Below are positions 680 through 40,808 of a stretch of DNA of 43,879 nt, in pieces. Source of the DNA: Nostoc sp. T09 (lineage in GTDB: Bacteria; Cyanobacteriota; Cyanobacteriia; Cyanobacteriales; Nostocaceae); the NCBI RefSeq assembly GCF_002154695.1, contig NZ_MTAV01000014.1, positions 1 through 43,879 of the forward strand. Direction: 5' to 3'. The first letter of the stretch is position 1, and every line of letters starts with the position of its first letter. Position numbers and translations under genes: made by a program. The notes under the pieces were generated by a model. The model saw only the letters and a list, made by a program, of their open reading frames with translations, ran no database searches and had not been told where the DNA came from.

Positions 680-879
680 ATTAATTTTTCGTTAATTTTA
701 TTAATTTCTGTAACCCAGCGCTGACGGGTTTTATGCTCTAAATTTAAAATATCATTTTGTGACCAGTGGAAATGGTAAGCAATAAAAGCTACCTCCTCAT
801 ATAGAGTATCAGAGGGGTAGCTTACGACTCCCCCGCTAGTTTTAACTCCACTGAATATTGAGTATTGCAATGGGGACAT
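676..879 (-). CDS. DUF6760 family phage-tail/eCIS protein, possibly a -1 frameshift product
   Basis: From about residue 20 onward the ORF matches the small DUF6760 family of contractile injection clusters: YPSDTLYEEVAFIAYHFHWS, then NLEHKTRQRW and EINKINEK. The only ATG (879) lies 58 nt inside the preceding gene, has no ribosome-binding site, and adds about 19 residues that simply read the upstream CPHC-coding region one base out of phase. No ATG, GTG or TTG lies close to the family core. The frame is -1 to the upstream gene, and a run of five G at about 829-833 sits just before that gene's TAA. Expression may therefore be by -1 slippage onto the tail-assembly protein. Function in the particle is unknown. 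The family call is good; the start is doubtful. Confidence 0.7.
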   Translation of the reverse strand: MSPLQYSIFSGVKTSGGVVSYPSDTLYEEVAFIAYHFHWSQNDILNLEHKTRQRWVTEINKINEKLI

Positions 880-1205
880 TGTGTGGGTATTTGTACATTT
901 CCTTGCTGATTAATACGATTATAAAATTCTCTGAGATAGGCAATATCATGAAGGAGCAGTCCTTCTAATAAATTGGGGCTAACAGAATTTAAACTACCTA
1001 AGCGGGTAATAACCCGTGCCAGCATTACCAAGACACCGTAAGCAGGGTTTTCCTGAACTTTGCGTTCTTGTTGTACCAAAATTTCATCTTTAGCGGTAGC
1101 TAAACGCATCACACCATGACGATGGACTCGGTTTTGGCTATCAATCAACCCTCGAGGAAGAATGAAGGCAAATTCAGTGCTGAGAGTATCCTGCTTGCGA
1201 CCCAT
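822..1205 (-). CDS. Phage-tail-assembly-like protein with C-terminal CPHC motif
   Basis: This 127-residue protein belongs to the small tail-assembly type found after the tube genes in contractile injection loci. It is a clear paralogue of the gene at 1350-1694: both have TEF.F.LP.G..DS, a VMRL.TA.DEI stretch and an ARVITRLG/SRVITRLG core. Unlike the paralogue it ends in a short tail with one CPHC pair (residues about 110-113), half of a zinc-ribbon pattern. The gene ends at TAA 824-822 inside the DUF6760 reading frame. The likely role is chaperoning or positioning tube subunits during assembly, inferred from position and the lambda G/T analogy rather than from any catalytic motif. Confidence 0.75.
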   Translation of the reverse strand: MGRKQDTLSTEFAFILPRGLIDSQNRVHRHGVMRLATAKDEILVQQERKVQENPAYGVLVMLARVITRLGSLNSVSPNLLEGLLLHDIAYLREFYNRINQQGNVQIPTQCPHCNTQYSVELKLAGES

Positions 1206-1230
1206 AATTTGTCTAGGTTTTTAAATATAT

Positions 1231-1345
1231 ATAACCACAGATAAACAACGGACACTTGCTTCAACGCCGATAACCCGCGCAACGCAGTGTCCTCCAGATA
1301 AACACAGATAAATATCTGTGTTCATCGGTGTTTATCTGTGGTTCC
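1231..1345. repeat. Inverted repeat between the two tail-assembly paralogues
   Basis: The gap holds a perfect 14-bp inverted repeat: AACCACAGATAAAC at 1233-1246 and its complement at 1330-1343. A smaller palindrome (ACAGATA, AA, TATCTGT, 1304-1319) lies inside. The ACAGATAAACAC/GTGTTTATCTGTGG wording resembles a short repeat scattered widely in bacterial genomes, and a related copy sits at 25366-25402. It interrupts an otherwise tightly packed operon and would fold as a long hairpin in the mRNA. Confidence 0.75.
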
Positions 1346-1349
1346 ATTG

Positions 1350-1694
1350 TTAAGAAGCTGAATTTTGCAAGACGTTGACTGTATCTTCTGATTGGGAAAT
1401 TGTACTCTCCAAGCCGTTGATTTGACGGTAAAAATCTTGGAGATAATTTAGATCTTGGGAGAAAAAGTTTTCCACGATCGCAGGAGTTACTTCCGATAGA
1501 GCACCCAAGCGAGTAATGACGCGTGACAAAATAATAATTGTGGCATAAGCTTCATTAGCTTTAACTCGTGGGTCACGCAATGGTGCAATCTCGTCTATCG
1601 CTGTTGATAACCGCATTACACCCTTGCGGTGGAGGTTGCCTTCAGAGTCTAGATACCCCTTAGGCAGTGTAAATTCAAACTCTGTCGGAAACAT
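1350..1694 (-). CDS. Phage-tail-assembly-like protein
   Basis: A 114-residue paralogue of the 822-1205 product, sharing the N-terminal PTEFEFTLPKGYLDSEGNLH segment and the central SRVITRLGALSEVTP block, but lacking the CPHC tail. It starts at ATG 1694 behind a strong ribosome-binding site (CAGGAGG, 6-7 bases upstream), 11 bases after the tube gene, so it belongs to the same transcript. Small proteins of this type follow tube genes in cyanobacterial and actinobacterial contractile injection clusters. A role in tube polymerisation or chaperoning is inferred from that position. The C-terminal 25 residues are Ser/Gln/Asn-rich and look disordered. Confidence 0.75.
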   Translation of the reverse strand: MFPTEFEFTLPKGYLDSEGNLHRKGVMRLSTAIDEIAPLRDPRVKANEAYATIIILSRVITRLGALSEVTPAIVENFFSQDLNYLQDFYRQINGLESTISQSEDTVNVLQNSAS

Positions 1695-1705
1695 AATCCT
1701 CCTGA

Positions 1706-2200
1706 TTACTTCACGCGTTTAAATTCCTCGAAAGCAATCTCCAGTTCTTCAATATGTAGGTCGGTACTACGGGCATTGAAATCAGCCATTTTATAACTAG
1801 CAGGCCAAGCACCTGCCAATTCAAATCTAGCTTCTTCTTGATTTCTTTGATTGTAAATAGACAAAGCCATGAGTTTCCGTTGCTTTGCCCATTTACCATT
1901 TTGCACTTCCTCAAACCATTTCCAAAAAACCATAGAGTTAGCGATCGTACCTCTACGTAGAGTGATGTTGCCACTTTTAACATTTCCAGGAAGCTTGGTT
2001 CTAACCACCTGACCTTTAACCGCCGCACCCCACTTGTTAGAAGTAACTTCAGCAATTTCAATTGCATCCTGTGTTCTTTTAAAGCCTTGACACTCTAAAA
2101 AGTAACAATCGATATTATCTTTTTGTCCATCTAGTGTCAGTCCTAAATAGAACCGATGGGCTGCTAAAATTTCCGGTAGCTTTTCAGTTGCTGGAACCAT
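1706..2200 (-). CDS. Phage tail tube protein, gp19 family (second tube paralogue)
   Basis: The 164-residue product has the gp19 tube-fold pattern: an N-terminal strand with FYLGLTLDG, then FLECQGFKRTQDAIEIAEVT, a KLPGNVKSGNITLRRG loop, the W-F-E-x-V-Q-N-G-K segment and a C-terminal IEELEIAFEEFKRVK strand. In contractile injection systems this family stacks as the inner tube. Two different tube proteins in one locus are normal: one usually builds the shaft and the other joins tube to baseplate. This copy is second in the transcript (20 bases after the first) and ends in the Glu/Lys-rich strand common in the main tube subunit. Which is shaft and which is adaptor cannot be settled here. Confidence 0.88.
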   Translation of the reverse strand: MVPATEKLPEILAAHRFYLGLTLDGQKDNIDCYFLECQGFKRTQDAIEIAEVTSNKWGAAVKGQVVRTKLPGNVKSGNITLRRGTIANSMVFWKWFEEVQNGKWAKQRKLMALSIYNQRNQEEARFELAGAWPASYKMADFNARSTDLHIEELEIAFEEFKRVK

Positions 2201-2220
2201 TTTTCTTTACAGGTTTAATT

Positions 2221-2682
2221 TTAGTTAACGCGTTCAACACCCTCATGAACTAATTCGACTGTTTCGTTTGCCATATCACCGCTAGAAGCTGTTAATGTTG
2301 GACCTGTATATTTCACAGGGTAGCAATTAATAATATTCCAACGAGCTACTTCTTTGAGTTGTTGATTGTAAGCAACTACCGAAGCTGATTTACGATTTTG
2401 ATCCCACTGGCGAGGTTTTCCCATATCCTCGTTACACTTTTTGTACCATTGGTAAAGGTCTACATCAGCAGTGGCAATCACCTTAAGTGTGATATTCGTA
2501 AACTTGGTAACGGTAGGAGTTGCTTGCCGCCAAATTTTACCGCCTTTAGTAGATCCGTGTACTTCTTGAGCGGGGGTATTTTCTACACCTAAACCGCTGA
2601 TTTCTTTAATAGACTTCTCTGTAATTCCGTCGGCTTCAAAATAAAACAGACAAGCAGATAATAACTCAGGTTGACCCGGCAT
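2221..2682 (-). CDS. Phage tail tube protein, gp19 family (first tube paralogue)
   Basis: A 153-residue gp19-family tube protein. Recognisable parts are the N-terminal CLFYFEADGI strand, the ISGLGVENTPAQEV segment, VTKFTNITLKVI, a YQWYKKC helix start and the closing NETVELVHEGVERVN strand. It starts at ATG 2682 with AAGGAG nine bases upstream and lies 54 bases after the sheath gene, the usual sheath-tube-tube order. It differs enough from the 1706-2200 protein (shorter loops, no KLPGNVK loop) to be an old duplication. It is probably a structural subunit of the inner tube or the tube-baseplate junction; family membership is secure, the exact place in the particle is not. Confidence 0.87.
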   Translation of the reverse strand: MPGQPELLSACLFYFEADGITEKSIKEISGLGVENTPAQEVHGSTKGGKIWRQATPTVTKFTNITLKVIATADVDLYQWYKKCNEDMGKPRQWDQNRKSASVVAYNQQLKEVARWNIINCYPVKYTGPTLTASSGDMANETVELVHEGVERVN

Positions 2683-2736
2683 GACTAAACTCCTTATGAA
2701 TTAATAATTAGTAAACAGTAAACAAAGAAATGCTAT

Positions 2737-4398
2737 TTATTCTTCGTCTTCGATGCCATTCCATTGGCTAATTCGGAAGATGACAAACTCGGCTGGTCTG
2801 ACTGGACAAACACCAACTTCGATATATAAACGCCCCAAAATTCTCGTTTCTGGTGGGTTTAATTCCTCATCGCACTTGACATAAAATGCTTGTTCTGGTG
2901 AAGCACCAAATAAAGCTCCTTCACGCCAAATTCGCTCTAAAAAGTTACTGACAGTGCGTTTTACCCTTGCCCACAAATCTTCATCGTTGGGTTCAAAAAC
3001 GACCCACTGCGTACCTAGTTCAATTGATTTTTCTATATAGCTAATTAACCGCCGCACACTGATATAACGCCACTCAGTTTTATCTGGCTCAACGAGAGTT
3101 CTTGCGCCCCATATGCGGATACCGCGATTGGGGAAGCTGCGAATGCAGTTAATTCCCAAGGGGTTTAAAAGTTCTTGTTCGCGGAAATTAGTTTCATAAC
3201 CCAAACCAATTACACCTCTGGGTACCTCGTTAGCAGGTGCTTTATAAACGCCTCTGGTTTCGTCGGTGCGTGCCCAAACACCCATGACGTGACCGCAAGG
3301 AGGTATGAGAATGGGATTACCGCGATCGCGGGGATTAGGAACTTTGATCCAAGGATAATAGAGGGCCGCAAACATGGAACGGCGGTTAAATCTGTTCAAC
3401 CACTCCACTACCTGTTGGGGTTTAGTCTGTTCTGGTGGTGGGTCGATTAAAACCATGCGGTTGGGTGGGTTGGGAATATCACCACTAGCAGAACCCTCAC
3501 ACATGCTAATCATCAGTTCCATGATGCCGTGGATTTGATCCAAGTTCATCACTTGCGCTTGATAAGCCCGCATTAAATCGGGACAAGCTAGCATGGTGAT
3601 TTCATCAATTTCAAAAATCCCTCTTACCCCTGTTCGGTCATCACGTACCCCTTCAAAATCCCGTGAAAATCTATCAACTGTCTGGGCAACAATTGGCGGC
3701 GCTAGTTCATATTGACCATTGGTCGGACGACGAGATAAAGGCTGTCCAGTTTGAGAAATATCTTCTACGTTAATATACATAGAATTTCTCAAAGCTGTTA
3801 ATGCGTAAGTTGCTACCTGAGCCGGAACTTCGCGGTTCATGGTTAAGTTCTCATATTGCTCTAGAACTTCATCTCCCCGGCGAATTTGCACTGTAAAGTA
3901 TTCACCTGTATTGGGAGGTGCTTCTCCTTCAGTTCCTTCAGGTAGGGCACGAGGGCCACTATCAGTGATCAAAATATCGATGGCTCCGCCTGCTGCTTGT
4001 TCTGGGCGCAAACTAAAGCGCAGCGTTGGACGATTACCGCGACCGCTAATTCGGAGAGTGGCAGGTTCTTGGCTTGGGGGCTTGGGTGCGCCTGGTAACT
4101 GCGTACCAATACTGGTCACCCAGCAGCGACCGCCACCATTCATAAAGTAGCCATAGACGGCAAAGGGTAAATAGGCGTTGAAATCGGTGAAACCGTCGGA
4201 GTTGGGACGGGCAAAGTAGTTGAGATATTGCGTCCAATTGGTCACCAGCATGGGCTTCAATAGTTCAGCCCCATCGCGAATATCTTCTGTAAAGCCGACA
4301 AAACCACCAACCGCAGTGCTGACACCTTCTATCGGTCGGCTACCTCGGTCAATTTCTTCGACATAGACACCAGGTGCAAAGTAATCAAGTCTAGCCAT
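2737..4398 (-). CDS. Contractile tail sheath protein
   Basis: The 553-residue protein begins MARLDYFAPGVYVEEIDRG, the standard sheath N-terminal linker strand, followed by GVSTAVGGFVGFTE. It closes with the conserved sheath C-terminal domain: NPLGINCIRSFPNRGIRIWG, the RTLVEPDKTEWRYISVRRL helix, and FYVKCDEELNPPE before the final VGVCPVRPAEFVIFRISQW strand. These end strands interlock neighbouring subunits. The middle (about residues 120-260) is a variable insertion. Contraction of the sheath drives the inner tube outward. Length and order, directly after the Pvc16-like gene and before the tubes, match cyanobacterial contractile injection loci. It is the most diagnostic gene of the cluster. 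Confidence 0.95.
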   Translation of the reverse strand: MARLDYFAPGVYVEEIDRGSRPIEGVSTAVGGFVGFTEDIRDGAELLKPMLVTNWTQYLNYFARPNSDGFTDFNAYLPFAVYGYFMNGGGRCWVTSIGTQLPGAPKPPSQEPATLRISGRGNRPTLRFSLRPEQAAGGAIDILITDSGPRALPEGTEGEAPPNTGEYFTVQIRRGDEVLEQYENLTMNREVPAQVATYALTALRNSMYINVEDISQTGQPLSRRPTNGQYELAPPIVAQTVDRFSRDFEGVRDDRTGVRGIFEIDEITMLACPDLMRAYQAQVMNLDQIHGIMELMISMCEGSASGDIPNPPNRMVLIDPPPEQTKPQQVVEWLNRFNRRSMFAALYYPWIKVPNPRDRGNPILIPPCGHVMGVWARTDETRGVYKAPANEVPRGVIGLGYETNFREQELLNPLGINCIRSFPNRGIRIWGARTLVEPDKTEWRYISVRRLISYIEKSIELGTQWVVFEPNDEDLWARVKRTVSNFLERIWREGALFGASPEQAFYVKCDEELNPPETRILGRLYIEVGVCPVRPAEFVIFRISQWNGIEDEE

Positions 4399-4428
4399 GA
4401 AATTCTCTCCAAGTCAGTTAAAAAGTAA

Positions 4429-5268
4429 TTATTCAGGAGTTAGTAAGATTTCTTTGAAGCTATAACTTTGGCTATCCACCAAGACATTGACATTCTGGGG
4501 TAAATAGCCAGGACAATTAACTGTCAAAACATAATTACCTATACGAATGTCTTCAAAAAAGAACAGTCCTTCTTTATTGCTTACCGCTGATTTTTTAGTT
4601 CTTTGCACAGTTACTTCTGCCGCCAGCAGTGGCAGATTGGTGACTGCACTTTTGACCATACCTGCGATCGCTACCCGCCTGGTGACAACTGTGCTGTTGC
4701 CATTCTCACTCAATTGGTTTTGCAAATTGAAAATTCGTTCCCAAACTAAAGGTACGAGAGTAGATTGCGGCTCAACGGGTATCATTGCAGTCACATACAA
4801 AGCGGAACGCAAAGGTACATTTAGCGCGCTCCATAATGAACCAATCTCAATCGCCGGATCTAAGGCAACTGTTAAAGATAAATTGCCATAACCTCGCAAC
4901 TCCGGAACCAAATAGTCTTCTTGCAAAGACCGATGGCGCAGCAGTACAGTTAATGCTTCGCTGAGAAGGTGATGTTCACCTAAAGCTGTTCGATCCCAGG
5001 CTGTTATTAGCATTGAGACATCAAACCAATTAGGTGACCAACTTACAGATGTCGGTTGCAGACCCCGTGACGGTTTACGTTCAACTTGCCTACCGGATTG
5101 TTGAAACTGCTTACTCTCACGAATGTCATAAACATACAAATTGAGAGTTGGTCCTGCACCCTCTTCGCGACGATTACTAGGATGACTAAAGTCAATTTGC
5201 TCTGTACTGGTGAGTGAGGTTCCTCCAGCTAGAATTTCTGCTAAGGTTTGAAGAACGAAGATAAGCAT
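4429..5268 (-). CDS. DUF4255/Pvc16-like cap protein with C-terminal carboxypeptidase-regulatory-like domain
   Basis: First gene of the visible eCIS transcript, 279 residues. Residues about 1-190 are the DUF4255 (Pvc16 N-terminal) domain: VLQTLAEILAGGTSLTSTEQ, a YVYDIRES strand, SWSPNWFDVSMLITAWD and an EHHLLSEALTVLLRH helix. This family caps or terminates the sheath/tube at the end away from the baseplate. Residues about 200-279 form a carboxypeptidase-regulatory-like beta sandwich (VAIAGMVKSAV, EGLFFFEDIRIGNYVLTV, PGYLPQNVNV). The start follows an 870-bp gap, so the promoter probably lies just upstream; a TATAGT hexamer on the minus strand (5312-5307) is a weak -10 candidate. Confidence 0.87.
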   Translation of the reverse strand: MLIFVLQTLAEILAGGTSLTSTEQIDFSHPSNRREEGAGPTLNLYVYDIRESKQFQQSGRQVERKPSRGLQPTSVSWSPNWFDVSMLITAWDRTALGEHHLLSEALTVLLRHRSLQEDYLVPELRGYGNLSLTVALDPAIEIGSLWSALNVPLRSALYVTAMIPVEPQSTLVPLVWERIFNLQNQLSENGNSTVVTRRVAIAGMVKSAVTNLPLLAAEVTVQRTKKSAVSNKEGLFFFEDIRIGNYVLTVNCPGYLPQNVNVLVDSQSYSFKEILLTPE

Positions 5269-6138: not shown

Positions 6139-8619
6139 ATGCGTATATTAATTACTGCGATTTTTACTGTTGCGGCTTTAGCTTTACAGGAGTTTAGCTA
6201 TGAGGCTAAAGCAGCTCCTAAACAGACGGGGTTGATCAAACAGTCTTCTCAATTAATTGAAAATCTAGATCGGCAAGCCAATACAACCACAGCACGTAGT
6301 TCTCAAAATTTGCGACAAGCTGCCAACCAGTCTGGTCAGGTTATCAATAGTGGAGTTCCAGATTCTCCGCCTACTGCTGATATTTTTACACCTTATCTCA
6401 AGGAGATTGCAGCTAGTTTATCACCCGGCTGGGTAATGCGCTTACCATCTCATATATTACTCGATAAAAACTTAGCAGAGGAAGCTAGCAAATATAGTAT
6501 TAAAGTTGCTACCTCAATCTCTAAGTCTAGCCTCACAGTTAATATTTTTTCTTGCAAACGACAAGAAGTTTCTTGCTTAGTTGGCATTATTAGTGCATTT
6601 CAGATAAATAAAGATGCTGAAAAAGCATTCAAGCAATATCAAAACATAGCTGAATCTATTATTATAAATCAAAATCTAAAAGGGTATTTCTTAGAAGCAC
6701 AAAAACAAAATAATCCGACAGATTTATCTCATTTGATATGGCAACAAGATAACCAATTTTATAAAGTCAGTTTTAGAACAAAGTCTCAGCAAAAGCTGTT
6801 AGCAATAGTAAATTCAATGGTTGAGGCTACACCGATTCTCAGCGCTAATAGCTTAGGTGAAGTCAGCTCACTACCAAGTAAACTACAAGCAGAAATTGAA
6901 GAATCACCAAAGAGTAGTTTAGTTATTCCTAGCCGTCGTCTTGTACTAACCACAGCGGAGCAGTTGCGACAAGGAGAGATTTTAACAACTATCCGACAAC
7001 GCCGCTTTTTAGTACCTGGAGGAGAACGTCGTAGCGGACTTACCGATCAACCTACTGTTGGGTTTAGCTGGGGTGTTACCAATAACCTAGAACTTACCTT
7101 AGACGCACAGACAATTGATAATTCTGGTCCCATCAAACAAGGTGGTTTTAATACTCAACGCGTCAATCGCAATAGAGACACTAATAGAAATAACGGTACT
7201 AACTTCTTTCAGGAGTTCACCTTGCAAGCCAAACAAAGGCTTTGGCAGAGTGAAAATGCGACGCAGGCTCTCGGCGGTGTAATTGCTGTTTCTGTAGGAA
7301 ATGGAGGTCGTCCCTTCCAATTTTCTAATGATATTGATGTTGTAGCAACAGGAAAAAATCAACAAACAGTTTTTTCTCTAGAACTGCCATATACCATTAC
7401 ACCTGATGAAAATTGGCAATTTACTCTATCGCCTAAGATAGCTTTTTTACCCGAAGATAATGCCTTATATTTAACTAAACTTCCTTTGCCAAATTCTGGA
7501 TCTTTTGGTACTACATTTGGGCTGGCTGGCGGTGTAAGTTATAAGCTCAATTCACGTTTAATATTGTGGGGTGATGCCTTTATACCATTTGCAGGTAATA
7601 ACACAATTAACCGTGATACAGGCTTACCTAGTCGCACTGTTGCTTACAATGCGGGTTTAAGGTACATAGTTAATCCTCGATTATCTACAGATTTATTTGT
7701 TTCTAATACTTTAGGTAATACAGGACCTTTGTCTATAGTGGCAGATAGAGAGTACACTGCCATAGGATTTGGTGTGACTGTGTTACCAGGTATCACCAGC
7801 GCCAACCGCCGCTACCCAGAACATTTTGGACCAACCCAGCAACCACCGCCAACTACATACGCTGGATTTAGCTTTTTAGATGGAGGTACAGTTCCCCATA
7901 ATCAATTATTACTAAGTTTACAAGGGGGAGGGCAGGGAATATTATCTGCAATTCGCTACGGGTTATTAGATGATTTAGAAATTGGTGCTTTTCTTGATTA
8001 TGTTCCAGGTACTATAGATGAGTCGTTATTAGGGTTCAGTGGAAAGATTCGTTATTTGCATCAAGCTGACGGCGATCCATTTACTTTAAGTATTGCAGGA
8101 ACAATAGCAAGGGCGAATAACCCTTTTGTGAACTTTACTGAAAACAATCGTAATAAATTCCAACAACTAGGATTGCAAAAGGCGGGATTTGCCTTGAGTA
8201 ACGAAAAGGATGAACAAGGCGAATTATTTGTCGTTACTATTTCTACTCCCATGCATTACCAATTTCCAGGCGGAAGTGCAACTTGGCTAACTCCGATTTT
8301 GGGATTTGTACAACGCAGAGGATTAGAAATTGCGGGGTTTAATATTGGCGGATCGGTTCCTTTGTTGAACAACTTGCAGGCGATCGCAGAGGTAGGTTTA
8401 GACTTAGCAGATAAAGGTAACGGCTTTATTGGTAACCAGCGCCAAACAATTATTCCTTGGACTCTAGGTCTGCGTTGGCATCCTGGTTTGTTTTCAGGGC
8501 TGCAATTAGAAGCATACCTCACTAATCGACTTGGTTCTAGCCCTTTTGATAGCTTAAGAGTCAAAGCTGATAATGAAACGACAATAGGTGTTGGTCTACT
8601 GTTACCTATTCAGTTCTAG
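6139..8619 (+). CDS. Outer-membrane beta-barrel-like protein with N-terminal globular domain
   Basis: The 826-residue product begins with a signal peptide (hydrophobic residues 3-17, likely cut near AKA-AP at 26). Residues about 60-240 are a mixed alpha/beta domain with a close Cys pair (FSCKRQEVSC). From about residue 270 the sequence alternates polar and hydrophobic residues in long strands (FSWGVTNNLELTLDAQT, TFGLAGGVSYKLNSRLILWG, EIGAFLDYVPGT) with Gly/Asn-rich turns, and ends in Phe (LLLPIQF), a typical BAM recognition end. I recognise no named family. It resembles a large outer-membrane transporter or surface barrel. It stands alone behind three DNA dyads and codon use looks native. An envelope location is well supported, a specific function is not. 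Confidence 0.75.
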   Translation: MRILITAIFTVAALALQEFSYEAKAAPKQTGLIKQSSQLIENLDRQANTTTARSSQNLRQAANQSGQVINSGVPDSPPTADIFTPYLKEIAASLSPGWVMRLPSHILLDKNLAEEASKYSIKVATSISKSSLTVNIFSCKRQEVSCLVGIISAFQINKDAEKAFKQYQNIAESIIINQNLKGYFLEAQKQNNPTDLSHLIWQQDNQFYKVSFRTKSQQKLLAIVNSMVEATPILSANSLGEVSSLPSKLQAEIEESPKSSLVIPSRRLVLTTAEQLRQGEILTTIRQRRFLVPGGERRSGLTDQPTVGFSWGVTNNLELTLDAQTIDNSGPIKQGGFNTQRVNRNRDTNRNNGTNFFQEFTLQAKQRLWQSENATQALGGVIAVSVGNGGRPFQFSNDIDVVATGKNQQTVFSLELPYTITPDENWQFTLSPKIAFLPEDNALYLTKLPLPNSGSFGTTFGLAGGVSYKLNSRLILWGDAFIPFAGNNTINRDTGLPSRTVAYNAGLRYIVNPRLSTDLFVSNTLGNTGPLSIVADREYTAIGFGVTVLPGITSANRRYPEHFGPTQQPPPTTYAGFSFLDGGTVPHNQLLLSLQGGGQGILSAIRYGLLDDLEIGAFLDYVPGTIDESLLGFSGKIRYLHQADGDPFTLSIAGTIARANNPFVNFTENNRNKFQQLGLQKAGFALSNEKDEQGELFVVTISTPMHYQFPGGSATWLTPILGFVQRRGLEIAGFNIGGSVPLLNNLQAIAEVGLDLADKGNGFIGNQRQTIIPWTLGLRWHPGLFSGLQLEAYLTNRLGSSPFDSLRVKADNETTIGVGLLLPIQF

Positions 8620-27073: not shown

Positions 27074-29671
27074 CTACGGCTCGCTGTTTCCCAAAACTGC
27101 TTCTAAAGTCGTTATCAGATCTTCTCGGGTGTAAGGCTTATTCAAAACAGCTTTAACACTTGCTCTGAGAGCTTCATCAAGTTGCTCATTCGATTCCACT
27201 CCATTGAGTGCAATAATCTTAACTTGCGTATTGATTATTCGCATTGTCCGAACTACCTTTGGTGCATCAAGTTCTGGAATTCTCATATTAAGCAGAACCA
27301 AACTGACCTCCGATTGATGCTCAGCATAAAGTGAGAGCGCTTCAATTCCGTTAGTTGCAGTCATAATTCTATAGCCACAACTTTCTAGCAGTGTCTTCAT
27401 AATCTGGCGGGAATCATTTTCACCATCAGCAACCAGAATCAGCCTTGCATCTCCTATCGATTGTGTCTGTTCAAAGGATGTGGACTCAGGTGTTGCTCTT
27501 AAGTAGATTTTGAATTGAGATCCCGTTCCCACCTCACTCAACACATCGACTGCACCCCCATGACCTTTGATAATTCCTATTACCGCCGATAGTCCTAACC
27601 CTGCTCTCTGTCCAAAAGCTTTTGTTGTGAAGAAGGGGTCGAAAATCCGGTTCAAATTTTCTGGAGGAATGCCAATACCAGTATCAGAGACTGTAATCAC
27701 AATGTAAGGACCAATACCAGCACCTAAAGGGATACGAGCGATACTCTCTTCCATCCAAGTATTTTCTGCGGTAATGCGTAAGATGCCACCATCGGGCATA
27801 GCATCACGAGCATTATTGCACAGGTGTATTAACACCTCGCGTAGTTGGTCTGGATCTCCAGAAATCTTCCACAAGTCCGTTACAGGTGCTTTTGTCCGAA
27901 CTAATATGTCTGGTGGAAATTTTTGTTGAACGTATTTTTTAACTTCTAAAAGCAATTGGTTTACATCTAAAATCCTCTTTTGACCCTTAGTCCCTTGGGC
28001 AAAATTCAGCACCTGCTTCAGCATATTGGCACTGCGCTTGGTATTCTCCTCTAAGATCGCTAATAATTGCTGGCTCTGCTCATCTTGAAGATTTTCAGAG
28101 AGCAGTTGTACAGCCAATAAAATCGGCGACAGAGCATTATTGAGGTCAGCAGCCAGACCTGTTGCCATTGTGCTGATGCCCTCTAAGCGTTGAGTTTGTA
28201 ACCGTTGAGTTTCAGTTTGTTTTCTTTGTGTAATATCTGTATTGGCAATCAAAATCGATTTAGATTTGCCATTTTGAAAAATCAATTTCCAACGGCTTTC
28301 AAGCGTTAGTCGCTTACCATCTTTCGTCCGTTGCTGAAGTTCACCCTGCCACTCACCCTTTTGATGAACCGCTTTTTGAGCTGTTTTGAGTAGCAGAGAA
28401 AAATCTTCAAACAGCAGTTCATCTAGATAACGCCCTAAGGCTTCATTCGCCGTCCAACCAAATAGATTTGTTGCACCACTATTCCAGAAAAGAATGCGAT
28501 TTTCTAAATCCACAACTACAATGGCATCCTGAGATCGATTAAAGAGCATTGCTTGCTCTCGCATTTGCTCTTGGGTCTGTTCCCGCTGTGTAATATCGGT
28601 TTGAATGCCAACAAAATAAAGCAGGTCACCAATACTTGAAGAGACCGGAGCAATTTTTAATTCATTCCAAAAGGGTTGATTGTCTTTGCGATAGTTCAAG
28701 AGGGTGGTCTGTATCTCTCGTCTTTGCGCGATCGCCTCGCGGATCTGAGCCACAACGTTCCAATCGGTGTCCTCCCCTTGTAAAAATCGGCAGTTGCAAC
28801 CCAGAATCTCCTCAGAAGAGTAACCCGTAATTCTAGTAAAAGCGGGATTTGAGTAGATAATTGGGTTATCTTCCTGATTGGGGTCGGTTATGATAATCCC
28901 ATCAGAAGCGGAATCAATTGCTTGTACCAGCCCTAACTTAGCGATCGCGGCTGTTTCGCCTTTGTCTTGATTAGTTTGGGGTTCCGTCGTACTTATTTGT
29001 TCTACCGGGCTTAACGACTCCTGCTGAACCCTACTCCAGTAGGTGTTGAAGAAGTCTACAAGACGAGGTTCCTCCACGGTTAAATCACTGAAGTGTTCTT
29101 GAACGCGCTTATCAGTTTCGTATCTCACTTCAGGATGAGCTTTCATCCACTCATGGCAAGTTTTAACATAAGCAATAAATGTAACTAAGTAATCGTAATT
29201 CTCATCTCCCAAAATATGGCGTAGCTCATCTCGGTAGTCTTCAGACAGATCGGTTTTCAGTGCGATAAAGATTGAGCAGCAAAGTAAACTTTCTTCGAGG
29301 ATCGAATTTAAATCAGATAAAATCTTCAGTACGTCTGCCTGTGCTGCAAGCAAATGCAGATGCCGCTCAACCTCTTGTTCATCTGGAGGGGCTGACTCAA
29401 GAAAGGTGAGGATCTCTTGTGCCTGCATTCCCAACTCACGCAGTGAGCAACTATGGCAGACCAAGCAGTATGGGACGGGGCAAAAACGCGACAGGTAGGC
29501 AGAAAGTTTTTCCTTAAATAAAGATGGTAAAGGATTCTCGACATAGGCAGCAAGCGTTTGCTGCCACAAATTCTCCAATATCTTTGGAGTTGCTAATGCT
29601 GGAGAGAAAAAAGGCGGAAAGAAACCAAACTTTTCTTCAATTTCTGTAGTGATTTGTCTACTTGTTCGCAT
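27074..29671 (-). CDS. AhpD-like/LOV/PAS hybrid histidine kinase with lost phosphoacceptors
   Basis: An 865-residue multidomain sensor. Residues 1-215 resemble an AhpD/carboxymuconolactone decarboxylase fold with the redox motif CLVCHS (C69, C72, H73). At about 247-362 lies a LOV domain: NPIIYSNPAFTRITGYSSEE, GCNCRFLQG (adduct cysteine C294), NYRKDNQPFWNELKIAPV. A second PAS follows at about 372-483. The dimerisation helix reads TGLAADLNNALSP, with Ala508 (codon GCT) where the phosphoacceptor His belongs. The ATPase domain is intact: N box CNNARDAM (618-625), DTGIGI (663-668), RAGLGLS. In the receiver (743-862) the phosphoacceptor Asp is Asn795 (codon AAT, in LVLLNMRIPE), the acidic pair reads DG and the Thr/Ser is Asn823. 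No frameshifts. Likely a blue-light or redox sensor without its own phosphorelay. Confidence 0.9.
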   Translation of the reverse strand: MRTSRQITTEIEEKFGFFPPFFSPALATPKILENLWQQTLAAYVENPLPSLFKEKLSAYLSRFCPVPYCLVCHSCSLRELGMQAQEILTFLESAPPDEQEVERHLHLLAAQADVLKILSDLNSILEESLLCCSIFIALKTDLSEDYRDELRHILGDENYDYLVTFIAYVKTCHEWMKAHPEVRYETDKRVQEHFSDLTVEEPRLVDFFNTYWSRVQQESLSPVEQISTTEPQTNQDKGETAAIAKLGLVQAIDSASDGIIITDPNQEDNPIIYSNPAFTRITGYSSEEILGCNCRFLQGEDTDWNVVAQIREAIAQRREIQTTLLNYRKDNQPFWNELKIAPVSSSIGDLLYFVGIQTDITQREQTQEQMREQAMLFNRSQDAIVVVDLENRILFWNSGATNLFGWTANEALGRYLDELLFEDFSLLLKTAQKAVHQKGEWQGELQQRTKDGKRLTLESRWKLIFQNGKSKSILIANTDITQRKQTETQRLQTQRLEGISTMATGLAADLNNALSPILLAVQLLSENLQDEQSQQLLAILEENTKRSANMLKQVLNFAQGTKGQKRILDVNQLLLEVKKYVQQKFPPDILVRTKAPVTDLWKISGDPDQLREVLIHLCNNARDAMPDGGILRITAENTWMEESIARIPLGAGIGPYIVITVSDTGIGIPPENLNRIFDPFFTTKAFGQRAGLGLSAVIGIIKGHGGAVDVLSEVGTGSQFKIYLRATPESTSFEQTQSIGDARLILVADGENDSRQIMKTLLESCGYRIMTATNGIEALSLYAEHQSEVSLVLLNMRIPELDAPKVVRTMRIINTQVKIIALNGVESNEQLDEALRASVKAVLNKPYTREDLITTLEAVLGNSEP

Positions 29672-30080: not shown

Positions 30081-30641
30081 CTACTCAAATAGCACGCATT
30101 GAAACCCAGTTTGCTGCTTTATTACTTGTTTATAGCCCGCCAATGTAGTATTTAAGCGTGTAACATCAGATTCTTTGATGCCTTTGACATATATACACGA
30201 TTTATCTGCCCAGAGTTCATAACCCGCTTCACTGCGACCCTTAAAAGTTCTTTGCTCGGTAGTGGTAGCCTTAGCTACTACTGGTGTAGGAAGTCTGTAG
30301 GAAACATCGCTGATAGCAATTATGCCGCCAATCAAACCCACCAAAACTGCACTCACCACTTGCACAAGATTTGTATTATCTACATACTTATCAGAATGAA
30401 GTGCAAAATATCTGTTCCAATTGATTCCAGCTATGTGAATTGATTTAATTGGCAACTGGATTTCTTCAAGCACTTGAATAATTCGGACGCAAACCTTGGG
30501 ATCAGCGGATTTAATTTTTAACAATAAAGCCACCCGATATTGTATTTTGGGTTCCACTTTTGTACTAATTGCTTGTTCTATTAAAGACGCGATCGCCTGG
30601 ATGTCTCCACTGCGAGCTAATTCGAGTATATTATCTTGCAT
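30081..30641 (-). CDS. Single-span membrane protein with N-terminal cyanobacterial helical module
   Basis: A 186-residue protein. Residues 1-80 (ILELARSGDIQAIASLIEQA, then VALLLKIKSADPKVCVRIIQ and LEEIQLPIKSIHIAGI) recall a short module common at the N-terminus of cyanobacterial membrane proteins, built around an ALA..GD..AI..LI phrase. One transmembrane helix lies at about 94-114 (VVSAVLVGLIGGIIAI). The periplasmic part of about 70 residues has two Cys (DKSCIYVKG, GFQCVLFE). No catalytic motif. Function unknown; possibly a small sensor or assembly factor. Flanked by two long gaps, so monocistronic. Confidence 0.68.
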   Translation of the reverse strand: MQDNILELARSGDIQAIASLIEQAISTKVEPKIQYRVALLLKIKSADPKVCVRIIQVLEEIQLPIKSIHIAGINWNRYFALHSDKYVDNTNLVQVVSAVLVGLIGGIIAISDVSYRLPTPVVAKATTTEQRTFKGRSEAGYELWADKSCIYVKGIKESDVTRLNTTLAGYKQVIKQQTGFQCVLFE

Positions 30642-31161: not shown

Positions 31162-32223
31162 ATGGACGCAGTAGATAGCAACATCAATGAGTGGACGTAC
31201 CTCAGCTATGAAAAGATTCCGGAGAATTTCAATAAATGGGGTTTGACAGAAGCCGATTATCGCCTTTTCAACAAAACAGATTGGGTGGTAACGGAAAAAA
31301 TTCATGGTGCTAATTTTGGTATAACTACCAATGGTTCACAAGTCCGCTTTGCCAAAAGAAAAGAGTTTTTACAGCCAGAAGACGATTTTTTTGATTATCA
31401 ATCTTTAAAAGATAAATTAGCGCACCAGGTAAAAGAGATATTCCAAATTTTGCAGTCCGAAGCTCCGTTGCAAAGAATATATGTTTATGGTGAATTGTTT
31501 GGCGGAGAGTATCCCCACCCAGATGTACCTGCTGTTAATCGTATTCAGGCTGTACAAACTGGTGTTTATTACTCACCAAAAATAGAATATTGTGCTTTTG
31601 ATATTGTTGGGTTAGAGAGTCAAAATCTAGCATTAAGATATTATCTAGATTATCAAATATCGCTCAAGCTGTTTCAGCAAGTGGGAATAATAGCAGCAGA
31701 ACCATTATTTATCGGTAAATATGAAAAAGCTTTAGCATATAATATTGAGTTTGAGTCTACAATTCCAGCAGCTTTAGGTTTGCCTAAGCTACCTTTTGTG
31801 AATAAGGCTGAGGGAGTTGTAATTAAACCACTTCATTCTATTTATATAGAGACAGGTAAACAAAGAATTCGTCCAATTCTGAAAAAGAAGATTCCGGAAT
31901 TTGCAGAAGATAGCCGATTTCATCAGGCGCAAAAATGGACTGTGCAACAACAGCCAATAATTACTCAACAGATGAGTATAGAAGAGGAATTGACTCAGGA
32001 AATGCTGGCTTTAGTAACGCCTACCAGGTTGAACAATGTTATTTCTAAATTGGGTAGAGTTTCTGTAAACAAATTAGTGGAATTATTAGTTAAAGATGTA
32101 TTAGAAAGCTTCCAAGAAGAGTACGAAAGTATTTTCAATGCATTAGAAGATGCTGATCGGCAAAATATGATTGAGCGATTAAATCAAGCATCGCAACAGT
32201 TAGTTGATGATTACTTCCAATAA
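31162..32223 (+). CDS. RNA ligase, Rnl2 (T4 RnlB) family
   Basis: A 353-residue nucleotidyltransferase that would seal RNA 3'-OH/5'-phosphate nicks through an enzyme-adenylate. Motif I is TEKIHGAN with the adenylated Lys at K46; motif III is YVYGELFGG (E111); IEYCAFDIVG corresponds to IIIa; motif IV is EGVVIKP (217-223); motif V is in ILKKKIPEF (239-247). The order and spacing match Rnl2-type ligases. After about residue 255 a helical C-terminal domain (EEELTQEMLALVTPTRLNNV) replaces the T4 C-domain and would give RNA specificity. RNA ligases often act in repair of tRNA cut by toxins, but no nuclease, kinase or RtcB partner is adjacent; a strong operator-like dyad precedes the gene. Confidence 0.9.
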   Translation: MDAVDSNINEWTYLSYEKIPENFNKWGLTEADYRLFNKTDWVVTEKIHGANFGITTNGSQVRFAKRKEFLQPEDDFFDYQSLKDKLAHQVKEIFQILQSEAPLQRIYVYGELFGGEYPHPDVPAVNRIQAVQTGVYYSPKIEYCAFDIVGLESQNLALRYYLDYQISLKLFQQVGIIAAEPLFIGKYEKALAYNIEFESTIPAALGLPKLPFVNKAEGVVIKPLHSIYIETGKQRIRPILKKKIPEFAEDSRFHQAQKWTVQQQPIITQQMSIEEELTQEMLALVTPTRLNNVISKLGRVSVNKLVELLVKDVLESFQEEYESIFNALEDADRQNMIERLNQASQQLVDDYFQ

Positions 32224-38159: not shown

Positions 38160-40808
38160 ATGACACTCCCTAATCCTGGTAGCGTCCTGGCTACATTAAC
38201 TGAACTGACTCAAGTTAATCGTACCCACGCTTTATTGCGTCGTGTTAAAGATCTTTCTGTTAACGAATTTGTTTGTTTACTCGATTTTATTACTGCTGAG
38301 TTCCAGCAATTTCTTAGAGCAATTGAACTGATCAATAATGAAGCTCTAGAAACTATGTTGGAGAAAGTCCTAGAAGCGATCACACTAAAAATTGGTCAAA
38401 TTCTCCAAGCAGAGCACACGGCAATTTTTTTAGTAGATTATGACAAAGGCCAGCTGTGGTCAAAAGTTCCCCAAGATAACAGCCAAAAATTCTTAGAAAT
38501 TCGCACTCCAATTACAGTTGGTATTCCTGGTCATGTTGCTAGCACTGGTCAATATTTAAATATATCTGAAACCGCTACTCATCCCTTATTTAGCCCAGAA
38601 CTAGAAAAACAAATGGGCTACAAAATCCGGAATCTTTTATGTATGCCAGTTGTTAGTAGCAAAAGCCAAACCGTAGCAGTGGTACAACTGGCTAATAAAG
38701 CGGGAGATCTTCCCTTTAATCATGATGATGAGGAACGATTTCGAGATTTTGCAGCTTCGATTGGTATTATCTTGGAAAGCTGCCAAACTTTCTATGTAGC
38801 AGCTCGCAATCAACGGGGAGCCACAGCACTTTTACGGGCAACTCAAACCCTAGGGCAAAGTTTAGATTTAGAAGCAACTTTGCAAATAGTGATGGAGCAA
38901 GCCCGGATCTTAATGCAAGCAGACCGCAGCACGCTATTTCTATATCGTAAAGAAATGGGGGAACTCTGGACAAAAGTAGCGGCGGCAGCAGATGGCACAA
39001 ACTCAATTGAAATCCGGATGCCATCCAATCGCGGCATTGTTGGCTATGTGGCTTCCACTGGTGAAGCTGTGAATATCCCAGATGCTTATAAAGATCCCCG
39101 CTTCGATCCATCTACAGATAGAAAGACTGGGTATGTAACTCGCAATATTTTATGTTTGCCAGTCTTTAATTCCGCGAATGAATTAATTGGTGTCACCCAG
39201 TTGATTAATAAGCAACAAGGTAGTTTTACTGCCTCTGATGAAGAATTTATGCGAGCTTTTAATATCCAAGCCGGAATTGCTCTGGAAAACGCTCGCCTTT
39301 TTGAAAATGTGTTGTTAGAAAAACAGTATCAAAAAGACATTTTGCAAAGTTTGTCTGATGCTGTAATTTCTACAGATATGGCAGGTCGAATTGTCACTAT
39401 TAATGATGCCGCACTGGAATTACTTGGTTGTCCGATAGGAGATACTCATCAAAAAAGTAATAAACATTTGTGGGAACAAAATTTGCTTGGGCGCTTAGTT
39501 TGGGAAGTAGTGCCCATTGAAAATTTGCAAATGCGGCTGGAAGATAGTCTAAAAACCGGAGCAAAACATTACGTTCCCGAGCAAAGTTTAACTGTGGGAC
39601 TGTACCACGTCCAAAGTTCTGAGTGCCGAGTACCAAGTGAAATGGATGCGGGATGGACACAGCAACGTCAGAACCAAAGTAATACGCCGCCACTGGGGGA
39701 ACTCTTTTACACCCCTGGTTCCTTAATTTTGGCAGTGAGCGATCGCCAAAATCTAGATGTTTTTATTCCCTGGAATCTACCCCTGACACCCCAATCTAAG
39801 TTTTTGAGTGCAAGTGAGGTGCAAAAAGTCGAACGCAGCACCAATCTGACTGTGAATCCCTTAACCAACCCAGAAGGTGGAGTTAGGGGTGGTTTGGTGG
39901 TGTTGGAAGACATCAGCCAGGAAAAACGCTTGAAAACTACCATGTACCGCTACCTCACACCCCATGTAGCTGAGCAAGTTATGGCTTTGGGGGAAGATGC
40001 CTTAATGGTGGGAGAACGCAAGGAAGTAACGATTTTGTTTTCTGATATCCGTGGCTACACCACACTTACAGAAAATCTCGGTGCAGCTGAGGTGGTATCG
40101 TTACTTAACCAGTATTTTGAAACAATGGTAGAGGCAGTTTTTAACCATGAAGGCACCTTAGATAAGTTTATTGGCGATGCTTTAATGGCAGTGTTTGGTG
40201 CGCCTTTACCCCTCACAGAAAATCATGCTTGGCGAGCCGTACAAGCAGCATTGGATATGCGCCAACGGTTAGCAGAATTTAATCAGCGCCGGATTATTCA
40301 AGCACAGCCACAAATTCATATTGGCATTGGGATTAGTTCGGGAGAAGTGGTTTCTGGTAATATCGGCTCCCACAAACGCATGGATTATACCGTCATTGGC
40401 GATGGCGTCAATTTAAGTTCCCGCTTGGAAGGTGTGACAAAAGAATATGGTTGTGACATCGTTTTGAGTGAATTTACTTATCAACTCTGTAGCGATCGCA
40501 TTTGGACACGCCAGTTAGATAAAATTCGCGTCAAAGGTAAGTATCAAGCAGTAAATATCTATGAGTTAATTAGCGATCGCACTACTCCTCTAGATGATGC
40601 CACTCAAGATTTTTTGTTCTACTATCAGTCTGGAAGGATGGCTTATTTAGCCCATAACTTCCAACGTGCGATCGTTTGCTTTGAAGCTGCCAAAAATATT
40701 CGCCCTCAAGACCAAGCCGTAAATATCCACTTAGAACGCGCTCATAATTATCAAAAAACACCACCCCCTGATTCTTGGGATGGTGTCTGGACAATGACTG
40801 CTAAGTAA
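38160..40808 (+). CDS. cyaB: Class III adenylate cyclase, GAF-GAF-PAS type
   Basis: An 882-residue sensor cyclase of the Anabaena CyaB1/CyaB2 layout. GAF-A (about 65-208) and GAF-B (about 237-378) each keep the cyclic-nucleotide NKFDE-type residues (QLANKAGDLPFNHDDEE; QLINKQQGSFTASDEE). A PAS domain begins near 388 (DILQSLSDAVISTD). The cyclase domain (about 620-775) has metal Asp D629 (LFSDIRGYT) and D673 (DKFIGDALMAVFG), K669 and T744 as purine-selecting pair (the Lys-Thr pair reported for CyaB1), and the transition-state N751/R755 (GVNLSSRLEG). A short TPR-like tail ends WDGVWTMTAK. cAMP bound to a GAF probably stimulates its own synthesis. Odd: the PAS holds long Ser/Asn/Pro-rich insertions, one made of heptamer repeats (39615-39642). 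Confidence 0.94.
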   Translation: MTLPNPGSVLATLTELTQVNRTHALLRRVKDLSVNEFVCLLDFITAEFQQFLRAIELINNEALETMLEKVLEAITLKIGQILQAEHTAIFLVDYDKGQLWSKVPQDNSQKFLEIRTPITVGIPGHVASTGQYLNISETATHPLFSPELEKQMGYKIRNLLCMPVVSSKSQTVAVVQLANKAGDLPFNHDDEERFRDFAASIGIILESCQTFYVAARNQRGATALLRATQTLGQSLDLEATLQIVMEQARILMQADRSTLFLYRKEMGELWTKVAAAADGTNSIEIRMPSNRGIVGYVASTGEAVNIPDAYKDPRFDPSTDRKTGYVTRNILCLPVFNSANELIGVTQLINKQQGSFTASDEEFMRAFNIQAGIALENARLFENVLLEKQYQKDILQSLSDAVISTDMAGRIVTINDAALELLGCPIGDTHQKSNKHLWEQNLLGRLVWEVVPIENLQMRLEDSLKTGAKHYVPEQSLTVGLYHVQSSECRVPSEMDAGWTQQRQNQSNTPPLGELFYTPGSLILAVSDRQNLDVFIPWNLPLTPQSKFLSASEVQKVERSTNLTVNPLTNPEGGVRGGLVVLEDISQEKRLKTTMYRYLTPHVAEQVMALGEDALMVGERKEVTILFSDIRGYTTLTENLGAAEVVSLLNQYFETMVEAVFNHEGTLDKFIGDALMAVFGAPLPLTENHAWRAVQAALDMRQRLAEFNQRRIIQAQPQIHIGIGISSGEVVSGNIGSHKRMDYTVIGDGVNLSSRLEGVTKEYGCDIVLSEFTYQLCSDRIWTRQLDKIRVKGKYQAVNIYELISDRTTPLDDATQDFLFYYQSGRMAYLAHNFQRAIVCFEAAKNIRPQDQAVNIHLERAHNYQKTPPPDSWDGVWTMTAK
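39615..39642 (+). repeat. Heptamer repeat inside the cyclase coding sequence
   Basis: Units AGTTCTG, AGTGCCG, AGTACCA, AGTGAAA run in 7-bp phase and encode about residues 486-495 (SSECRVPSEM) within the PAS region. The motif is the same AGTNCNG family as at 36121 and 42151. The reading frame stays open, so the insertion or expansion has been tolerated. Confidence 0.7.

Follow-up and report, generated by a model that had tools for sequence, protein, structure and literature searches.

The window, that is, the whole 43,879-nucleotide stretch of Nostoc sp. T09 that we analyzed, carries on its minus strand a gene (P0001) whose reading frame has zero internal stops, as the initial annotation had stated. 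Its product places an AhpD-like domain, a LOV domain, and a second PAS domain in front of a histidine kinase core and a fused receiver (Table 1). The HisKA, HATPase_c, and Response_reg matches all exceed the Pfam cut-offs.

Table 1. Coordinates of P0001 and its features in the window
Feature	Position	Strand	Basis or remark
Whole gene P0001, putative LOV hybrid pseudo-histidine kinase, 865 codons	27074..29671	-	
AhpD/carboxymuconolactone-decarboxylase-like N-terminal domain, all-helical, residues 1-219	29015..29671	-	
C69-x-x-C72-H73-x-C75 motif, N-terminal domain	29447..29467	-	14-row structure alignment A3
LOV domain, residues 250-362	28586..28924	-	Pfam PAS_9 at 257-362; PDB matches
Photoactive Cys294 (TGC) in GCNCRFLQG	28790..28792	-	Codon read from DNA; alignment
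Second PAS domain, residues 377-485	28217..28543	-	Pfam PAS_4
HisKA (DHp) domain, residues 501-561	27989..28171	-	Pfam HisKA, E 3.1e-7, 30.8 bits, cut-off 26.9
Ala508 (GCT) at the phosphoacceptor His site	28148..28150	-	Codon; His in 22/22 other rows
Asn512, H+4 position of HisKA phosphatase chemistry, kept	28136..28138	-	Codon; Asn in 22/22 other rows
HATPase_c (CA) domain, residues 605-726	27494..27859	-	Pfam, E 1.3e-19
Altered G2 box RAGLGL, residues 689-694	27590..27607	-	Relatives have GTGLGL
Degenerate receiver, residues 745-856 (D749 G750, N795, N823; K845 kept)	27104..27439	-	Pfam Response_reg, E 1.1e-15
Asn795 (AAT) at the receiver phosphoacceptor Asp site	27287..27289	-	Asp in 20/20 other receiver-bearing rows

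The N-terminal domain has the all-helical AhpD fold. The AhpD motif is CxxCxxxH, that is, CxxC plus a His four residues on; the P0001 domain has C69-x-x-C72, a His at residue 73, and a Ser at residue 76. C69, C72, H73, and C75 are invariant across the 14 rows of structure alignment A3, and in the 19-row set described below the exceptions are L089 (Tyr at 73) and L090 (Ser at 69). The LOV cysteine that the initial annotation had called intact is indeed present, within NCRFLQ. It belongs to a set of residues invariant in the second 14-row structure alignment (A2), namely N293, C294, R295, Q298, N326, and Q357, so that the residues expected of a LOV domain are all in place; we take the Asn, Gln, and Arg members of this set to be flavin-contact residues. 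PDB matches of the domain include the blue-light photoreceptor 2mwg (E 2.3e-32) and the blue-light-activated histidine kinase 3t50 (E 1.9e-29). Entries called hybrid histidine kinase, 7oo9 among them, rank highest, and the one displayed has Ala at the Cys position.

Just upstream of P0001 lies a 186-amino-acid gene (30081-30641, minus strand) that matches no Pfam or NCBIfam family at cut-off; it has a full-length match only in its own genome and partial matches in two of the seven other genomes of the genus, so that it offered no synteny comparison. Elsewhere in the window, translations read by eye point to a contractile-injection or phage-tail-like run (822-5268, minus strand) with a sheath gene (2737-4398) and tube-like and DUF4255-like genes. 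On the plus strand there are an Rnl2-family RNA ligase-like gene (31162-32223; TIGR02307, E 1.5e-49, 169 bits, below the curated cut-off of 197) and a gene (38160-40808) for a protein with an adenylate/guanylate cyclase domain that also has a PAS-like stretch and a pair of GAF stretches.

Catalytic residues lost and kept

The initial annotation had described a kinase with Ala in place of the phosphoacceptor His and a receiver with Asn in place of the phosphoacceptor Asp, and the codons bear this out. There is no His anywhere in residues 498 to 602. The ATP site needed correction: the N box (NARDAM, with Asn620), G1 box (DTGIGIP), and F box (FDPFF) are kept, as claimed, but the G2 box, also listed as intact, reads RAGLGLS, with Arg (AGA) at residue 689 and Ala (GCA) at 690, where all 22 other rows of our comparison have Gly and Thr. 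Because the G2 box is altered at these two residues, the statement that the protein has "kept its ATPase" is unsupported in that form, and so is the statement that everything besides the two acceptors is preserved. In the receiver, the changed DG and Asn823 positions were confirmed: the acidic pair has lost its second member (DD to DG), the Thr/Ser is gone as well (N823, AAT), and the Lys (Lys845, AAG) remains. Overall, the observations of the initial annotation were largely confirmed.

Measured against an active HisKA kinase, P0001 thus lacks the H-box His and a standard G2 box; measured against an active receiver (PF00072), it lacks the acidic pair, the Asp, and the Thr/Ser, and has the Lys. 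With HisKA and Response_reg matches and no phosphorylation sites, it falls within the definition of a pseudo-histidine kinase with a pseudo-receiver. Given the changes at both phosphoacceptor sites and at residues 689 and 690 of the G2 box, established chemistry makes it nearly certain that autophosphorylation has been removed, and the residues support the view that P0001 would be unable to run a His-Asp phosphorelay alone.

The changes occur in one genome only, a draft assembly of 270 contigs, as a sequencing or assembly artefact would. Going from CAT or CAC to GCT takes two base changes, so a single sequencing error cannot explain Ala508. Taken together, the four catalytic codons show at least six base differences (CAT/CAC to GCT, GGN to AGA, ACN to GCA, and GAT/GAC to AAT) in an unbroken frame, and we consider an artefact very improbable.

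Relatives and the order of losses

Full-length relatives of P0001 are sporadic. Matching genes were found in 3 of 387 other genomes of the host order and in 13 of 387 genomes in a search of the class. No match was found in the 216 other genomes of the host family at E ≤ 1e-160 or in the seven other genomes of the genus at 1e-150, all seven of which have weaker kinase-core matches; in a phylum sample of 386 genomes at a threshold of 1e-170, P0001 itself was the sole match. Seventeen loci came from a scan of genome contigs; of these, L057 to L059 match over the full length (L058 only up to the receiver) and alone entered the main comparison. L060 to L065 have the N-terminal domain in common with P0001 and different output parts, and L066 to L073 are weak matches. 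The closest relatives, L080 to L082 (65 to 66% identity), belong to one genus of a different order from the host. The comparison set holds 22 rows besides P0001: 21 relatives and L005, a paralogue in the same genome whose identity to P0001 is 54% across residues 2 to 236 and 47% across the kinase core. Two further rows, L083 and L084, duplicate L057 and L058 exactly, and each pair was counted once.

A phage or plasmid origin was rejected: no relative was confirmed among viral contigs, the N-terminal domain had no match in phage records, and the partial matches in three plasmid records never spanned 80% of the query. The distribution fits a transfer from the lineage of the relatives, to which composition adds no support, because the GC content (0.433) and GC3 (0.393) of P0001 lie inside the range of 14 other window genes measured.

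In a tree of all 23 rows, P0001 groups with L080, L081, and L082 (support, 100/99), and these four join L057, L058, and L085 (100/100) in a seven-row subclade in which the receiver is either degenerate or deleted. At the second position of the acidic pair, P0001, L057, and L080 to L082 have Gly or Ser, and all 16 rows outside the subclade have Asp; L080 to L082 also lack the receiver Lys (His or Gln instead). The L058 and L085 proteins end after the ATPase domain and have no receiver. Beyond the stop codon of L058, a GALILLG stretch (6176-6200) resembles the first strand of the lost receiver and looks like a remnant. Two genomes of the set, G827 and G833, carry two copies of the architecture each (L080 and L094; L081 and L093), the receiver being degenerate in one copy and intact in the other.

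Because every member of the subclade has a degenerate receiver or none, receiver decay most likely began before the subclade split, when the His and the G2 box would still have been intact. The changes at the His, the receiver Asp, and the G2 box appear on this tree as later events found only in P0001 among the compared rows. His is present at the 508 position in 22 of 22 other rows and Asp in 20 of 20 others with a receiver (a stray tail Asn of the receiver-less L085 falls in the Asp column), so both acceptor changes are private to P0001; Ala508 and Asn795 occur once each, on the same branch. Among the compared rows, P0001 alone combines the loss of both acceptors with that of the first G2 glycine. 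A separate set of 17 kinase-core homologues from the genus, L005 included, likewise keeps both the His and the receiver Asp.

These patterns speak against treating the two losses as one event, as the initial annotation had done, since receiver decay is the earlier and is common to the subclade, and the loss of the His is private. The same annotation had named orthologues with His and Asp, and a change in this strain only, as an outcome that would refute its reading. At the level of the two acceptor residues, that refuting outcome was observed, though in a subclade that had already lost the acidic pair and of which two of seven members are without a receiver.

Distribution of changes and selection along the branch

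We counted columns that are invariant in all other rows and changed in one row, using 19 rows; L005, as a paralogue, and L092, L095, and L096, which have no N-terminal domain, were omitted, and the receiver-less L058 and L085 were kept for all but the receiver part. P0001 has changes at 0 of 52 such columns in the N-terminal domain, 1 of 30 in the LOV domain, 1 in PAS, 1 in DHp (H508A), 5 in CA (H611R, Q612E, G689R, T690A, and P725R), and 4 in the receiver (V769I, D774N, D795N, and L810M). The sensor half thus has 2 of 98 columns changed versus 10 of 83 in the output half (P = 0.013 by Fisher's test, for a contrast picked after the counts were seen). The sensor-to-output ratio is 2:10 in P0001 versus 55:16 in the 18 other rows pooled (P = 9e-5 by Fisher's test; also a post hoc contrast), in a count in which two closely related rows can hide each other's changes. 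Sensor changes exceed output changes in L059, L074, L085, L087, and L091, all of them long single rows. A milder excess of output changes is also seen in L057 (2 sensor and 3 output), L082 (0 and 3), and L093 (0 and 1); as L057 and L082 are His-keeping members of the subclade, the tilt toward the output half is not peculiar to the His-less gene. Only H508A, G689R, T690A, and D795N, of the ten output changes in P0001, lie in known motifs.

Selection was evaluated with custom-written codon models on 9 of the 23 non-identical rows, for which background omega was about 0.10 to 0.25. When each domain was fitted separately and branch lengths were left free, a neutral P0001 tip was rejected for the N-terminal domain (2ΔlnL = 6.89), LOV (11.37), and CA (10.85) and was not rejected for PAS (2.85), DHp (1.30), or the receiver (0.54). 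Tip omega was 0.12 for CA, 0.39 for DHp, and 0.60 for the receiver, the latter two not distinguishable from 1; the great length of the tip (neutral scale, 1.6) makes these estimates rough. A joint model with branch lengths common to the domains rejected tip neutrality in every output domain (2ΔlnL = 18.58 for DHp, 22.96 for CA, and 13.38 for the receiver), with a few L085 tail codons falling in receiver columns, which the separate fits avoid. The joint values are rough too, because a fit with DHp and the receiver both neutral is hardly worse than one with DHp alone neutral (lnL, −17282.86 and −17282.69), the other factors rising two- to sixfold.

Faster evolution on the P0001 tip, to which the raised DHp and receiver omega values of the separate fits pointed, was considered and dropped. 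In the joint model no domain was significantly faster there than the background (lnL, −17278.95 for the null, −17276.69 with two factors, and −17273.40 with six; P about 0.1 and 0.09), and the output/sensor pair of values on the control tip L057 was similar (1.71/1.12 versus 1.53/1.07 for P0001). The models show that P0001 was non-neutral over most of its tip branch. They neither date the loss of the His nor demonstrate selection after it, because the average spans the time before and after the loss and most of the tip may predate it.

With the sensing half intact and the phosphate-passing residues lost, the protein should either signal by another route, for which a few disabled kinases offer precedent, or be in recent decay. 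Ordinary decay would mean that a sporadic kinase gene, dispensable in this strain, has lost function from its catalytic end and has as yet acquired no stop. The absence of matches from the 216 other family genomes (E ≤ 1e-160), with the nearest relatives in another order, is in keeping with this, as are the restriction of the catalytic changes to one genome among the compared rows, the receiver lost by truncation in another subclade lineage (with the apparent remnant past the L058 stop), and the DHp and receiver omega values indistinguishable from 1 in the separate fits. Random loss should, however, also hit the sensor, where 0 of 52 N-terminal and 1 of 30 LOV columns are changed versus 10 of 83 in the output half, and the joint model rejects tip neutrality in every output domain. 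We regard decay as the main rival of the pseudokinase reading and as quite possible, short of probable; the restriction of the His loss to one genome weighs against that reading, as it gives no sign of retention over time.

Possible roles of a kinase without its histidine

We give an even chance to the reading that P0001 is a pseudo-histidine kinase under the control of a LOV sensor and an AhpD-like, possibly redox-responsive domain. Functions left possible for such a protein are binding, scaffolding, trans-phosphorylation by the CA domain, and phosphatase activity. The initial annotation had inferred selection for a light-gated non-phosphorelay role from the preservation of everything but the acceptors. 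That premise fails, and the interpretation is only partly supported; the role itself is still plausible, because phosphorelay by P0001 alone would be impossible, the LOV domain is intact, and the joint model shows average purifying selection on the output domains along the tip.

As a more specific course of events, the ancestor would have been a normal LOV hybrid kinase whose fused receiver lost its intact acidic pair by the time of the subclade ancestor, a step visible in the living members. With a fused receiver that was degenerate by then, the ancestral kinase, if it signalled at all, must have addressed a separate response regulator. In the P0001 lineage, the observed changes at both phosphoacceptors and at G2 residues 689 and 690 would then have abolished autophosphorylation and left the sensor, the helical core, and the CA fold. 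The present role would most likely be light-gated binding of a separate response regulator or of another kinase, so as to sequester the regulator or dephosphorylate it through the kept Asn512, in analogy to DivL-like pseudokinases and to His-less HisKA phosphatases. Living relatives represent the steps before the pseudokinase stage: an intact hybrid, a dead receiver with the His, and a deleted receiver with the His. We tentatively propose, while holding it rather unlikely in this full form, that P0001 is a natural light-gated, kinase-dead regulator with LOV/AhpD sensing, its transmitter turned into a one-way device by which a separate response regulator is captured or dephosphorylated depending on light, and that it was reached stepwise from a hybrid kinase through a dead or deleted receiver.

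Asn is an alternative to Thr at the H+4 position. HisKA phosphatases use the H+4 residue plus the His itself (T264 and H260 in HK853), according to an excerpt of PMC5727384. The His contributes to this activity and is dispensable for it in the account given by the available part of PMC12632262, where a frequency argument speaks against phosphatase activity as the general role of pseudokinases.

A different role would make P0001 one half of a heterodimer in which its ATPase domain, still active, transfers phosphate in trans to the His of a second kinase; that kinase could be a His-bearing paralogue such as L005, which is in the same genome, has the N-terminal domain in common with P0001, and shows the 54% and 47% identities given above. 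The CA domain is conserved overall on the tip (omega, 0.12; neutrality rejected), and the N box Asn620 and the G1 and F boxes are retained, which speaks for this role. Against it, the G2 box, which closes over the phosphates, reads RAGLGLS; the six best kinase-core matches in the host genome are merely 44 to 48% identical; and no partner gene lies in the window. We consider such a heterodimer unlikely.

The partner search used purpose-made receiver and kinase-core profiles (E ≤ 1e-3) on the window and on the flanks, of unequal lengths, of 10 relatives. It found no receiver or kinase gene beside P0001 in the 43.9-kb window or near L074, L075, L076, L080, L081, L082, and L085. Such neighbors occur at 3 of 11 loci (L057, L058, and L059) with differing placement, and an adjacent partner gene for P0001 was rejected. 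A hybrid histidine kinase directly upstream of L057 (34-2391), also seen in L104 from the same record region, is a possible partner of that gene, as is the hybrid histidine kinase that adjoins the receiver-less L058 kinase in divergent orientation (3222-8000 in L105). Downstream of L059 (7000-8782) lie two receiver-bearing genes, one of them CheY-like, and then a gene that by eye is CheW-like.

Several known systems resemble P0001 in part. DivL of Caulobacter (PMC4211667, available in part) likewise has the His replaced, the DHp/CA fold kept, and a sensor half in front, and its structure (PDB 4q20) matches the P0001 core at E 3.3e-9. In DivL, which has been studied as a regulator acting on the CckA pathway, Tyr occupies the His site, whereas P0001 has Ala, a LOV domain, a dead receiver, and no known partner. 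The same source describes DivL as without kinase activity, weak in ATP binding, and acting as a sensor of response regulators; DivL thus shows that such sensing is open to a transmitter that lacks the His and binds ATP weakly. The closest solved DHp-CA cores by sequence are those of CckA-type hybrid kinases (histidine kinase 5idj, E 7.2e-33; CckA 5idm, E 3.1e-24), but CckA is an active kinase with other sensors, and the NCBIfam model HisKinCckABruc gives P0001 268.6 bits against a cut-off of 1000. Bacterial LOV histidine kinases (PDB 3t50 and 6ph3, blue-light activated) place LOV before the kinase module as P0001 does; P0001 differs in its lost H-box and receiver chemistry and its extra AhpD-like domain. 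CikA and ShkA share with it a degenerate receiver on a HisKA kinase, which may control the kinase by docking, but they autophosphorylate (available part of PMC12632262), and P0001 is also without the His. CCNA_03265 of Caulobacter is a natural hybrid kinase without the conserved His that, unlike P0001, still has the Asp of its receiver and another His that might take the place of the missing one; in the accessible portion of PMC11481889 its authors weigh a heterodimer among other roles.

Pseudo-histidine kinases are thus already known. In the samples given in the excerpt of PMC12632262, 0.9% of HisKA domains (722 of 76,471) lack the His and 2.0% of receivers (3,111 of 152,269) lack the Asp. 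New here is a member that is fronted by LOV and AhpD-like sensors and has relatives in which each of the preceding steps survives; we found no light-gated pseudo-histidine kinase of this make-up among the open-licence, non-preprint papers searched. If P0001 is merely decaying, it represents an ordinary loss. Pseudo-histidine kinases are a small class that is little understood, and because the sensor of P0001 can be switched by light in the laboratory and relatives exist for each earlier step, both the route from kinase to pseudokinase and the role of a His-less transmitter would be directly testable.
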